From: Phycisphaerae bacterium
Lineage (GTDB): Bacteria; Planctomycetota; Phycisphaerae; UBA1845; Fen-1342
Direction: 5' to 3'
Assembly (NCBI GenBank): GCA_022072445.1
Contig: JAJVHV010000001.1
Location: 248,001-312,000 of the forward strand
DNA length: 64,000 nt
Shown here in pieces: positions 30,578 through 61,373 of this stretch. A model generated the notes under the pieces. It saw only the letters and a program-made list of their open reading frames with translations, was not told the origin of the DNA and ran no database searches. Within the stretch, counting starts at the first letter, position 1; each line of letters opens with the position of its first letter. A program made the position numbers and the translations under genes.

Positions 30578-30866
30578 GGTGAATAGCGAATGTCGAATAG
30601 CGAATAACGAATTGAGCTGCTTGGCGAATTGAGCCGCTTGGCGAATTGAGCCGCTTGGCGAATTGAGCCGCTTGGCGAATTGAGCCGCTTGGCGAATTGA
30701 GCCGCTTGGCGAATTGAGCCGCTTGGCGAATTGAGCCGCTTGGCGGATTGTGCCGCTTGGCAAACAAGACGGCGTTGCAGTTCAATTCGTTACTCTTAGC
30801 TCGCTACTCGCCATTCACCGCAGGGCACGCTTCTGCATTCTGCATTCTTCATTCTGCATTGTCGTT
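30578..30866. repeat. Dispersed intergenic element, copy 2, with tandem expansion
   Basis: It shares with 24562-24720 the blocks GAATAGCGAAT.., CAGTTCAATTCGTTACTCTT and TCTGCATTCTGCATTCTTC, in the same order. In this copy the central GCTTGGC segment has expanded into a 17-bp tandem array. It occupies almost all of the 345-bp gap between the Tyr-rich protein and the MBL hydrolase. Confidence 0.75.
30609..30761. repeat. Tandem repeat, nine copies of 17 bp
   Basis: The unit GAATTGAGCCGCTTGGC occurs nine times head to tail. Copy 1 has one change, copies 2-8 are identical, and copy 9 has two changes. 17 is not a multiple of 3, so the array reads as a 17-residue peptide repeat in any open frame, which explains the spurious ORFs over it. 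A near-match, CAATTCAGCCGCTTGG, lies at 28595 before the Tyr-rich gene. Confidence 0.95.
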
Positions 30867-42055: not shown

Positions 42056-42064
42056 CGTGGAGTA

Positions 42065-42211
42065 CAGCCGAGGGCGGCTGCTCTCCACACCTGCACACAG
42101 CCGAGGGCGGCTGCCCGCCACGCCGCACACTGCCACACCTGCACACAGCCGAGGGCGCCTGCTCTCCACACCTGCACACAGCCGAGGGCGGCTGTGCCAC
42201 ACACGCAGAGT
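42065..42211. repeat. Family A palindrome cluster, four copies
   Basis: CAGCCGAGGGCGGCTG or a near copy begins at 42065, 42098, 42146 and 42179. Copies are joined by TCTCCACACCTGCACA-type linkers, giving a 33-bp period with one 48-bp step. Each core is a 6-bp stem with an AGGG loop; the last extends to CACAGCCG/CGGCTGTG. The cluster lies between the convergent glycosyltransferase genes. Confidence 0.85.
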
Positions 42212-49741: not shown

Positions 49742-51529
49742 TCAGCAACCGCCTTCGCTGAGCAGCGCGTTGAGCAATGGGTCGACGTCGAAGCCGTTCA
49801 GGCTGCCATCCCAGTTCGTGTCGCCGGCGCAGGGGGAGCAGGGTGGGCAGCAGGCTGTGAGCATTCCTAGGAACGACTCGATGTCGAAGCCGTTGACCGA
49901 GCCATCACAATTGATGTCACACGGATCGCAGTCGATGACGCTTATCTGCGCTGTCTGGCTGGTGACCGTTCCGAACGGATTCGAGATGACGATGTCATAG
50001 TTGCCGCTGTCGTCAATCTGCAGATTTGTGATGGTCAGCGCGTCCATCGTAGCGCCGTCGATGCTGCTGCCTGAGCCGGTGGGACCATCCGTCAGGTTCG
50101 CGCCGTTCTTTCGCCACCGGAACTCGAGCGGCGAGGCGCCGCATGCGCACGCGGAAATCGACATGTCTCGACCCAGGTACGCGAGGCGGGGAGTCTGTCT
50201 CAGCGTCAATATCTGCGGTGCGTCGGCCAGCACGCTCACATCGAACGCAAAGGCCGCGCCTTTATGTTCGCTACCCGGCACGCCCACGATGGCTGTGACG
50301 CCGCCCAGTGCAACGGCGCTGCCGACTTCATCGTAATCGTCTGCCCAGCCGTCAACGAGCTTGGCGCGTTCAGTCCACGTGCCGTCGGCCCGCGCGAAGA
50401 CGTACGCCACGCCCGTTTGGACACCCCCCGACCGGTGCCGCGGGGCACCAACCGCAATTGTGTCCTGGAAAATCGTGACAGCGCGGCCGAATTCCGCCCA
50501 TCGCTCGCCGTTGACCGGCACCAATTTCGAAGTCTGCGCCCAAAGAGCGCCGTTGCGCTCAAAGACGTACGCCGCCCCGATGGCACCACTGTCCCAGTAG
50601 GCTCCGACTACGGCCGTGTCGTCGTCAATCGACACGGAACAGCCAAATAGGTCGCCGCCGTCTGCGTCCGATGCCAAGAGTTGGGCCTGCTCAAGCCAGA
50701 CGCCGCCGCTTCGGTGGAACACGTAGGCAGCGCCCCCGTCTGTACCATTGCCCGCGACGTCGAACGAGTCGGCGCCTATAACAGCGGTGTCAGCATCAAG
50801 CGCGGCGGATCGGCCGAATCTGTCGCCCATCGCACCGTTTGAAGCATGAAGCCGGGCCTGCTCGGTCCACACCGAGCCGCTCCGCATGAATACGTAGGCC
50901 GAGCCGGCGTCCTCTCCGCCATCAGGCGTATCGTCGCCGGAAGCTCCAACGAGCAATGTGTCCGCGGCGAGCGCGACCGATGTGCCGAACAAGTCGTTCG
51001 GTGCCCCATCCGATGCAAATAGGTGTGCCTGCTCCGTCCACGCACCTCCTACGCGCACGAATACGTACGCCGAACCGGTGTTCGCACCGGCAGGCGTGTC
51101 GTCCCCAGGCGACCCGACCACAACTGTGTCGCCGGAGATTGCAACCGACGAGCCGAAGCCGTCATCCTTTGCAGAATCACTGGCAAACAGTTGCGATTGT
51201 TGCACCCAAAAGGCGCCGGTTCGCACGAGCACGCGCGCCGACCCTGTGTACCACAGCCCATTCCTGTCAAGGTTCGCCCCAACAGCCACCGAGTCACCAT
51301 CGATCGAGACGGCTGTGCCATAGCGGGAGCCGTAGGACAGGCCCGAGTCAGGCAATCTGGCCGAACTGCACTGCCCGCGTGCATCCGGCGTCCCCGCGAT
51401 GGCCAGCACCGCTGCGCTGGTCAGCCCTGCGAGACGCAGCAGTAATTTGTAGGACTTCGTCCCCGATGCACGGCTTCGCGCCGCGATGAAAACCAATCCG
51501 AAGCATGCGCCGTGACGTTTTGCTGACAT
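49742..51529 (-). CDS. Secreted FG-GAP-repeat protein with Ig-like domain and dockerin
   Basis: The 595-residue product has GGAGG eight bases before the ATG and a signal peptide (LLLRLAGLTSAAVLAIAGTPDARG). About seven repeats follow the pattern FGSSVAISGDTVVVGSPGDDTPAG..TGSAYVFVRVGGAWTEQAHL, an integrin-alpha-like propeller. An Ig-like domain follows (FRWRKNGANLTDG..DDSGNYDIVISN), then a divergent Cys-rich dockerin (CDINCDGSVNGFDIESFLGML..CSPCAGDTNWDGSLNGFDVD). It stands 28 kb from the main array and on the opposite strand. Confidence 0.87.
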   Translation of the reverse strand: MSAKRHGACFGLVFIAARSRASGTKSYKLLLRLAGLTSAAVLAIAGTPDARGQCSSARLPDSGLSYGSRYGTAVSIDGDSVAVGANLDRNGLWYTGSARVLVRTGAFWVQQSQLFASDSAKDDGFGSSVAISGDTVVVGSPGDDTPAGANTGSAYVFVRVGGAWTEQAHLFASDGAPNDLFGTSVALAADTLLVGASGDDTPDGGEDAGSAYVFMRSGSVWTEQARLHASNGAMGDRFGRSAALDADTAVIGADSFDVAGNGTDGGAAYVFHRSGGVWLEQAQLLASDADGGDLFGCSVSIDDDTAVVGAYWDSGAIGAAYVFERNGALWAQTSKLVPVNGERWAEFGRAVTIFQDTIAVGAPRHRSGGVQTGVAYVFARADGTWTERAKLVDGWADDYDEVGSAVALGGVTAIVGVPGSEHKGAAFAFDVSVLADAPQILTLRQTPRLAYLGRDMSISACACGASPLEFRWRKNGANLTDGPTGSGSSIDGATMDALTITNLQIDDSGNYDIVISNPFGTVTSQTAQISVIDCDPCDINCDGSVNGFDIESFLGMLTACCPPCSPCAGDTNWDGSLNGFDVDPLLNALLSEGGC

Positions 51530-52790: not shown

Positions 52791-54569
52791 CTACCACGTC
52801 GTCCCCTGCGGCCCGTCGCGCAGCTCGACACCCAGCGCGGACAGCCGCTGGCGGATCTGGTCGCCCAGCGCGAAGTCCTTATTCTTGCGGGCTTCGGCCC
52901 GCAGGTCGATCAGCAGGCGGATCAGATCGTCCTGCTTGCCGTTGTCGGCGCCGCCCAGCGCCGCGGGCCAATAAAAGCCCAGCACGTCGCCGGCCAAGTG
53001 CTGCATGAGCCCGTCGGCGGCACGCAGGTCGGCGGCGCGCGTCGCGAATTTCGGATCGGCGTCGCGGTCGCCCGCGCTCGCTCCGGAACCAGCGCCGCCG
53101 GGCGCCGCAAGGCCGTCGCGCAGCCATTCGCCACTGCGTTTCGCCAGGTCGAACAGCGTGGCGATCGCGGCGGCGGTGTTGAAGTCCTCGTTCATCGCCT
53201 CGGCGAAGCGTTGCTCGATCTCGGCCAGTGCCGAACGAACCGCGTCGCTGGTGGCGAGCGATGAAGGCAGCGGCGCGTGCGGCCTGTCCGAGCCGCGACC
53301 GTGAGGGAGCGGATTCATAGCTTGGCGCAGTTGCGCGCGATCCGCAGAAGTTGACGTCGCCCCTCCACGGTCGCCGCTCGGATCGGTGGGCTGAGAAACC
53401 GCTCCCTTACGGTCGCGGCTCGGATCAGAACGGTCGCGGCTCGGATCGGCGGACACAGCCGAGGGCGGCTGTGCCACATGGGCTGCCCGGTGCAGTTCGC
53501 GCGCGGCGTCGCGCAGCTTGTACGAGCCGCTCTCGGCGGCCCGCAGCGCGTCGCTCGAGAAATCCAGCGTCTGGCGATAATGGCTGGTAAGAATGAAATG
53601 CCGCACAACGACCGGCTCAAACGTGCGGTCGAGCAGCACGTTGCCCGCTTTGTCGCGCACGCCGCCTTCGCGGCCGTAGAACACGTCCTTGAGCGAGATC
53701 GAGTTTCCCAGGCTCTTGCCCATTTTCTGCCCTTCGAGCGTGCACATGTTGTTGTGCAGCCAGTAGCGGACGAAGGGTACGCCGTGGGCCGCTTCGGATT
53801 GGGCGATCTCGCACTCGTGATGCGGGAACTGGTTCTCCAGCCCGCCGCCGTGAATGTCAAACGTCAGGCCGAGGTACTTTTGACTCATGGCGGAGCACTC
53901 GATATGCCAGCCGGGGAAGCCCTCGCCCCACGGGCTGGGCCAGCGCATGATGTGCCCCTCTTCCGCCCGCTTCCACAGCGCGAAATCCGCCGGATTGCGT
54001 TTTTCGGTGTTCACGGCGACGCGCGCCCCGGCCTCCATCTCCTCGAACTTGCGGCCGCTGAGCTTTCCGTAATCCGGGAATGACCCGACGCTGAAGTAAA
54101 CTGAGCCGTTCACCTCGTAAGCGTGGCCGCTCTCGATCAGCCGCTGCGTCAGCGCAATCTGCTCGGGAATGTGTGCCGTGGCGCGCGGCATGATGTCCGG
54201 GCGCGTGTTGTTGAGCGCGTCCATGTCGTCCAGATAACTACGCATGAACGTCTCGACCACCGCCATCGGATGCAGGCCGCGCCGCCGGGCTTCGGCGACG
54301 ACCTTGTCCTCGCCCTCGTCGGCGTCGTCGGTGAGATGGCCGACGTCGGTGATGTTCTGCACGTAGTTCACGTCGAATCCGGGGCCGAGCGGCGCCGGCG
54401 TCCGCAGCCAGCGCACGATCGCGTCGAAGCTGACGTAGCTCTTGGCGTGCCCCAGGTGGCTGTGCCCGTAAACGGTCGGGCCGCAGACGTACATGCCGAC
54501 GCGCGGCGGGTTCAGCGGCGAAAACTCCTCGCGCTGGCGGGTGAGGCTGTTGTAGAGTCTGACGGCCAT
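52791..54569 (-). CDS. cysS: Cysteinyl-tRNA synthetase with in-frame repeat insertion
   Basis: The 592-residue enzyme starts at ATG 54569 after GGGAG. It charges tRNA-Cys. Class I motifs are HLGH (residues 38-41) and KMGKS (~278). Zinc ligands are Cys in YVCGPTVYG, Cys in WHIECSAMS, and His/Cys in HHECEIAQ. Residues ~363-428, between the catalytic core and the helical domain ([24 protein letters not shown]), are a Ser/Asp/Arg/Pro-rich insert ([22 protein letters not shown]). The insert is encoded by family A and B dispersed repeats and keeps the frame. Otherwise the gene is intact. Confidence 0.95.
53287..53477. repeat. Family A and B repeats inside cysS
   Basis: Arms 53287-53312 and 53399-53424 are 26-bp inverted copies of family B differing at one base. 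Further partial family B copies are at 53363-53388 and 53427-53452, and a family A palindrome (CACAGCCG-AGGG-CGGCTGTG) is at 53454-53473. All lie within the reading frame of cysS, without stop codons. Confidence 0.85.
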
Positions 54570-54649: not shown

Positions 54650-54659
54650 CGCCGATGTG

Positions 54660-54748
54660 ACACAGCCGCCCCCGGCTGTAACCGCGCCAATGTGGCACAG
54701 CCGCCCCGGCTGTGCGGGCCAAGAAGTGCGCCAGTGTGGCACAGTCGG
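54660..54748. repeat. Family A palindromes upstream of cysS
   Basis: There are two copies (ACACAGCCG-CCC-CCGGCTGT at 54660 and GCACAGCC-GCCCC-GGCTGTGC at 54695) and one broken copy (GTGGCACAGTCGG at 54736). They fill most of the space between cysS and the cupin gene. Confidence 0.75.
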
Positions 54749-56062: not shown

Positions 56063-56262
56063 GGCGATTCTCCTTCGTTCGATGCCGGGCGGGTCGTCGC
56101 GGCTCGCCTCGATTTCTGTTGCGACCCATGTCGCTTCCATTGCCGGAGAGACGTGGCGAGCGCCATCGGAATTCAATCGACAGCGAGTGTCCGATAATGA
56201 TCGAAGGCGTACGCCGAAGGTTGACGCGAACCAGAGGTGCCTAGGGCATTCAGCCGACTCGG

Positions 56263-56362
56263 CGTCGGCACGGAGGCCGCACGCTGGCGTGGGCACGGAG
56301 GCCGCACGCTGGCGTGGGCACGGAGGCCGCACGCTGGCGTGGGCACGGAGGCCGCACGCTAC
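56263..56362. repeat. Tandem repeat, four copies of 25 bp
   Basis: The unit begins CGTGGGCACGGAGGCCGCAC and is repeated at 56263, 56288, 56313 and 56338. Copy 1 has one change and copy 4 two changes at its end. It lies in the 387-bp region between the divergent Gly/Ser/Ala-repeat gene and the P5C dehydrogenase gene; the remainder of that region shows no ORF I would support. Confidence 0.92.
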
Positions 56363-56449
56363 TGGCTCCACCCAACCCGCCCAGTCGCGATAGACTATTC
56401 TCGGCCGAACACGAATTCGTCGCGGCCCGTGCCTGGAAGGTGACCGAAA

Positions 56450-61280: not shown

Positions 61281-61303
61281 AGCTCGCAGCGCGCGCCGCC
61301 ATG

Positions 61304-61373
61304 GCACACCCGCCCTCGGCTGTGTAGCACGGACGCCCTCGGCCGTGTGGCGCAGACGCGCACGGCTGTGCGC
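61304..61373. repeat. Degenerate family A repeats
   Basis: Three decayed copies (GGCACACCCGCCCTCGGCTG, CACGGACGCCCTCGGCCGTG and CGCAGACGCGCACGGCTGTG) lie in tandem just after the antiporter stop. Confidence 0.6.

Follow-up and report, generated by a model that had tools for sequence, protein, structure and literature searches.

An in-frame REPIN-like insert in the cysS gene of a Phycisphaerae bacterium and its probable link to Y1 transposases embedded in essential enzymes

How does a dispersed palindromic repeat come to lie within the reading frame of an essential enzyme, and what carried it there? The question is raised by cysS, the gene for cysteine--tRNA ligase (CysRS), in a Phycisphaerae bacterium (genome G000). 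The gene lies in a stretch of 64,000 nucleotides, here termed the window, for which an earlier note had described repeats of two families, A and B, inserted in frame into cysS. We consider the segment to be, probably, a non-autonomous REP/REPIN insertion that belongs to a Phycisphaerae-wide system of palindrome-flanked, in-frame Y1 transposases in essential enzymes.

The cysS gene and its insert

The cysS gene occupies positions 52791..54569 of the window on the minus strand; the open reading frame (ORF) is readable from 54590, and the likely start is M8 at 54569, as in relatives. The product is identified as CysRS by TIGR00435 (437 bits against a cut-off of 340) and by the Pfam domains tRNA-synt_1e (PF01406) and DALR_2 (PF09190). 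A search of the 5.25-Mb genome found cysS in a single copy, with no second intact gene. The insert comprises residues 372-446 (53253-53477, minus strand) and is placed by family alignment between the catalytic core and the helical domain, where the earlier note had put it. Its length had been given as about 65 codons and is nearer 75 once the spacer and degenerate copies are counted. The reading frame is open across the insert, and neither the HIGH-like nor the KMGKS motif is disrupted, which agrees with the view that the insertion keeps the frame and spares the active site.

On the cysS strand, the insert is ordered as an A palindrome, a partial B copy, a full B copy, a spacer with a degenerate B copy and an inverted B copy. 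The family A palindrome (GTGGCACAGCCGCCCTCGGCTGTGTC, 26 nt; 53452..53477, minus strand) consists of a GTGG foot and a hairpin; its peptide AQPPSAV is encoded at 53454-53474, and an exact second copy is found at 42177-42200. Next come the partial family B copy (CCGAGCCGCGACCGTTC; 53428..53444, minus strand) and the left arm of the family B hairpin (53395..53423, minus strand), in which a CCGA foot precedes GCCGC.GA.CC.GTAA.GG.GA.GCGGT. This arm yields the peptide PSRDRKGAV, with SRDRKGAV encoded at 53397-53420, and the full family B copy reads CCGAGCCGCGACCGTAAGGGAGCGG. The spacer contains the degenerate family B copy (53359..53381, minus strand; peptide SGDRGGAT), and the right arm is inverted (53288..53312, plus strand), so that it is read on the cysS strand as PLPHGRGSD, encoded at 53286-53312. 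The 26-bp inverted arms with one mismatch reported in the earlier note are real and lie inside longer arms of 35 nt at 89%. The insert reads as a GTGG-foot REP together with two CnGA-foot REP hairpins in inverted orientation, by chance open in the cysS frame, and it represents the transposase-less form only.

Structure prediction gives a consistent picture of the protein. In an AlphaFold model of CysRS built from a 28-row alignment, mean pLDDT is 82 and the core exceeds 90, while most of the insert scores 35-49 between helices 346-372 and 443-467; the insert is thus predicted to form a disordered loop of 70-75 residues between two helices. A second extra stretch of 23 residues (53037..53105, minus strand) is also absent from relatives in the alignment and is neither A nor B.

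At the insert site, the linker is only about 8 residues long in about half of the CysS proteins of the same family, and others carry different low-complexity inserts in the same place (RRHEGTE and QGSQGPS types). The more distant Planctomycetes Scalindua and Brocadia have the short linker, and none of the distant relatives shows the segment as non-repeat DNA. Since relatives have about 8 residues where about 75 stand here, the cysS segment is an insertion, as the earlier note had proposed. In other genera (G011, G002, G016 and G018) the CysS linker contains other low-complexity repeats; the linker is therefore a tolerant spot for unrelated repeat families and not the site of one element. A Y1-bearing cysS was found in none of 105 genomes of the order.

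Repeat families A and B

Family B is abundant in the genome. In the 5.25 Mb, 103 sites match its core pattern exactly and 79 match the full 25-nt hairpin, compared with none for the reversed pattern in either case. The family A hairpin folds 3.5 to 5 standard deviations better than shuffled sequences (z -3.5 to -5). The family B hairpin is weak, its DNA fold being no better than shuffles and its RNA fold reaching z -2.3; the structures associated with class-3 Y1s have been called atypical hairpins, of high copy number and with a CnGA foot (PMC6006769). The feet GTGG and GTAG match the published class-2 REP feet GT[AG]G, and the B foot CCGA is a case of CnGA. In a comparison of 101 genomes, strong class-3-like Y1 matches and the B hairpin tend to occur together (9 of 14 genomes against 11 of 87; Fisher p 9e-5, the genomes not being independent).

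Two in-frame inserts in valS of the same genome (L052 9291-9130 and 8043-7889) can be aligned with the whole B-spacer-B' unit of cysS (53287..53444, minus strand) over about 160 nt at 72-74% identity, and in both the match to the cysS insert runs from end to end. Because two REP hairpins are inverted around a spacer, the cysS unit has the anatomy of a REPIN.

Further copies of both families, and other repeats, occur in the window and beyond. Family A copies adjoin cysS on its upstream side, outside the gene (54657..54714, plus strand), and other family A clusters lie at 42062-42201, as a small direct array, and at 61301-61370. Elsewhere in G000, family B forms long BIME-like arrays with a spacing of roughly 130-230 bp (C17:21892-24103, L054; C12:256-1351, L053; C7:45424-46285, L055; C24:61865-62795, L050), one of them near a contig end. 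Short tandem arrays at 30608-30764 and 56261-56385 of the window are built on units of 17 bp (CGAATTGAGCCGCTTGG) and 25 bp (GGCGTGGGCACGGAGGCCGCACGCT). In several ORFs, at 298-21513 and 49763-49925, repeated GD-NxDG(S)xNGFD segments resemble dockerin-like calcium-binding ends, and the window also contains repeat families D1 and D4 and the inverted pairs I1-I13.

Could low-complexity linker DNA simply have grown in place, by slippage or recombination and without transposition? Tandem B arrays are present in the genome and the linkers of other genera hold varied low-complexity repeats, both of which would fit such local expansion. It is nevertheless improbable, given that copies of these palindromes are scattered over about 100 places, that the inverted B-spacer-B' unit is common to cysS and valS, and that slippage brings no transposase gene. 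We infer instead that the repeats spread by Y1-mediated transposition.

Y1 transposases inside host enzymes

A search for REP-associated Y1 transposases, which the earlier note had suggested, gave ten matches to Y1 (IS200/REP-type, HUH) transposases in the genome, several of which are not separate genes. Outside the window, four complete Y1 domains lie in frame within housekeeping genes: two in alaS (C11, L043:6777-11831), one in purH (C22, L047:6369-9263) and one in ileS (C27, L051:6361-11301). Host Pfam domains are found on both sides of the Y1 in single ORFs of 1684 aa (AlaRS, with two Y1s), 965 aa (PurH) and 1647 aa (IleRS), and alaS and purH are each present in a single copy. A Y1 in alaS is flanked by family B copies at C11:69441 and 70110. 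In ValRS of G026, from the same family, a Y1 stands between SRDRKGAV and PLPHGRGSE repeats, and at the same site ValRS of G000 has the repeats alone; this comparison ties the repeat-only insert, of the kind found in cysS, to the transposase-bearing kind.

Tolerance of such inserts in essential genes would be accounted for if an intein-like or intron-like process excised them before the enzyme had to function. IStrons are IS605-type Y1 elements combined with introns. Removal is highly improbable here: no Rfam intron reached the gathering threshold in the alaS, purH, ileS and valS loci, no intein domain is among the Pfam matches, and removal at the RNA level needs no open frame, yet the frames are open. 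On the preferred reading, in which the hosts are IleRS, ValRS, LeuRS, AlaRS, PurH and GcvP, the Y1 would be retained as an unspliced internal domain of fusion proteins that would be made and active.

The extent of the phenomenon was surveyed in 248 genomes of the class, which are without annotation and are mostly MAGs, by searching them with two Y1 queries. The best Y1 matches lie mostly in open frames of 700-1670 aa, and about 60 of the 248 genomes have at least one such frame by hand count. In all, 76 Y1 loci were fetched, including 20 short-frame controls. Hosts could be assigned in 59 loci and comprise IleRS, ValRS, LeuRS, AlaRS, PurH, GcvP, a DUF1156-type methyltransferase, RarA, a SNF2-type helicase, RdgB and ThiE; host names beyond those checked with Pfam derive from protein similarity and reading of the sequence. 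Nearly all of the long-frame loci fetched have an identified host, and two more have DNA-modification or helicase-like surroundings by eye. The 20 control loci include several further fusions (RdgB, ThiE and DUF1156 methyltransferase) and otherwise stand-alone Y1s, and in none of them is a short-frame Y1 surrounded by a broken copy of a known host. In four genomes of one family (L181, L215, L216 and L217) the Y1 lies at the C-terminus of thiamine phosphate synthase (ThiE), an architecture unlike that of the internal insertions.

An inverted repeat common to both 400-nt flanks of the Y1 is present in 58 of 59 embedded loci and scores above all 20 triplet shuffles, compared with 5 of 59 for control windows 1.2 kb from the Y1. 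The flanking repeats have GTGG or GTAG right before the hairpin, or CCGA before the B hairpin. Within the Y1 domains, the HUH motif is intact in 60 of 61 embedded copies, and the catalytic tyrosine motif (YIxxNP or Y-x4-Q) is matched by strict pattern in 46 of 61.

Might these genes be artefacts of assembly or binning that join transposases to housekeeping genes? Many of the genomes are fragmented MAGs. The hosts and sites are found again, however, in independent genomes, including the single-contig or near-complete G187, G074 and G026, and flanks and frames are coherent, so that an artefact is barely conceivable.

How often the Y1 lies in frame is more fairly judged from PurH. Most loci were chosen for a long open frame, and the in-frame frequency is therefore biased upward for all but the PurH set, which was found by host domain and is a fairer sample. 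Nine of ten contiguous Y1-bearing PurH genes are in one frame (binomial p 4e-4 against 1/3, kinship ignored). In PurH of G010 (L162) the host halves are in different frames, so that either the sequence contains an error or the gene is genuinely broken. Full coordinates are available for 41 embedded Y1s, and in 27 of these the 40 codons ahead of the Y1 domain contain no ATG; expression of these transposases through the host frame is therefore likely, GTG and TTG starts being possible. Embedding in a host frame, without the start of a separate gene, marks these proteins as a variant of TnpA-Y1/RAYT; the trait is not a chemical property of the family.

Selection, movement and relation to known systems

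Differences between Y1s are concentrated at the third codon position, which differs most in all 16 pairs compared (for example 0.21, 0.13 and 0.56). This excess argues that the Y1 has been kept as a protein by purifying selection and does not distinguish selection before embedding from selection after it. The Y1s group by host gene across families, with 17 host changes against 44 in shuffles, and those of IleRS, LeuRS and ThiE form one clade each. Presence of the Y1 is patchy among close relatives, and one PurH linker holds unrelated Y1 types. The IleRS Y1s occupy two sites: G231 and G227 are sisters in the IleRS host tree, and their Y1s are not sisters (AU p 0.012) and lie at different sites. 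For LeuRS, the conflict between host and Y1 trees is not significant (AU p 0.22).

These patterns bear on the possibility of domestication, by which the host enzymes have come to benefit from the Y1 domain and its linkers, which are inherited vertically, with the repeats serving as passive linkers. Clustering by host gene across families, purifying selection, and a LeuRS Y1 tree that does not reject the host grouping are all what domestication would produce. It sits poorly with the patchy presence among close relatives, with the unrelated Y1 types in the same PurH linker, with IleRS Y1s at two sites in conflict with the host tree, and with the retention of the flanking palindromes, and we consider it unlikely. 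The two IleRS sites with their tree conflict, and the unrelated Y1 types of PurH, point instead to mobility with a preference for particular genes and not to simple vertical inheritance.

A mechanism can be proposed for such mobility. The Y1 would recognise the foot and hairpin in single-stranded DNA and move either REP pairs or entire palindrome-Y1-palindrome units. Insertions into genes would survive only if they kept the frame and fell in a surface linker that tolerates them, where the palindromes would double as DNA cleavage sites and flexible protein linkers. The transposase would be expressed with, and protected by, the essential host gene, and residence in such genes may be what maintains the element. 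A stronger form of the proposal holds that REP-type Y1s occur for the most part within essential enzymes, as internal domains that are translated and not spliced out, and that host-gene-specific lineages move between genomes and between sites of one gene, a form of intein-like homing without splicing, seeding transposase-less REPINs such as that of cysS into further essential genes. We regard the case for this stronger form as evenly balanced.

Parts of this system are familiar. Rickettsia palindromic elements (RPE) are short palindromes in frame in genes for functional proteins (PMC3733652), and the inserts of cysS and valS resemble them in this respect. There is no transposase in that account, whereas here REP-type feet are present, the genome has a Y1, and entire Y1 genes are embedded in frame. 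Intragenic GTAG/CGTC REPs are described in uvrA of Opitutus terrae and uvrB of R. conorii, with Planctomycetes named as carriers (PMC3733652); they too are REP singles and dimers within conserved genes, but are REPs alone, while the present cases extend to complete transposases, essential genes and recurrent sites. Class 3 TnpA-Y1s, known from Planctomycetes, have a Y-x4-Q motif, NHVH and CnGA-foot repeats (PMC6006769), features that match family B and the Y1s of AlaRS and ValRS here; they were described as separate genes, unlike the embedded forms. The RAYT/REPtron and REPIN systems of class 2 TnpA-REP likewise have a HUH/Y1 protein with the YIxxNP motif, flanked by inverted GT[AG]G-foot REPs. 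REPtrons are described as intergenic and as not moving as a unit (PMC6006769), in contrast to the embedded units, which are in frame within essential genes and number several per genome. Inteins with homing endonucleases share the in-frame position at conserved sites of essential proteins, the host-gene-specific lineages and the signs of horizontal movement; they differ in that no splicing domain is seen here, the protein apparently retains the insert, and the enzyme is a single-stranded DNA transposase. Judged on its feet, its dispersed high copy number, its inverted pair and the alaS Y1 flanked by the same repeat, the cysS insert would be filed as a REPIN-type element, and the whole system as a REPtron variant.

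In-frame REP and RPE insertions, the Y1 classes and REPtrons are thus already known, and what appears to be undescribed is the putatively autonomous palindrome-Y1-palindrome unit, in frame in essential enzymes and recurrent across a class. No earlier description of a Y1 within aminoacyl-tRNA synthetases, or of in-frame transposases in essential enzymes, was found in the literature searched, which was mostly open access, so that this is weak evidence of novelty. The 2018 survey of Y1s set aside overlong Y1 proteins as fusions or annotation errors (PMC6006769). The finding is relevant to annotation because such proteins get filtered out on these grounds. It provides a natural experiment on the amount of foreign sequence that an aminoacyl-tRNA synthetase can accommodate, and for protein engineering it names natural insertion points in these synthetases and in PurH. 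If the preferred reading is correct, REP-type elements regularly inhabit the coding DNA of the most conserved genes across a whole bacterial class. This bears on how REPs spread and on why their transposases persist, since a transposase embedded in an essential frame would be assured of being expressed and of being retained.
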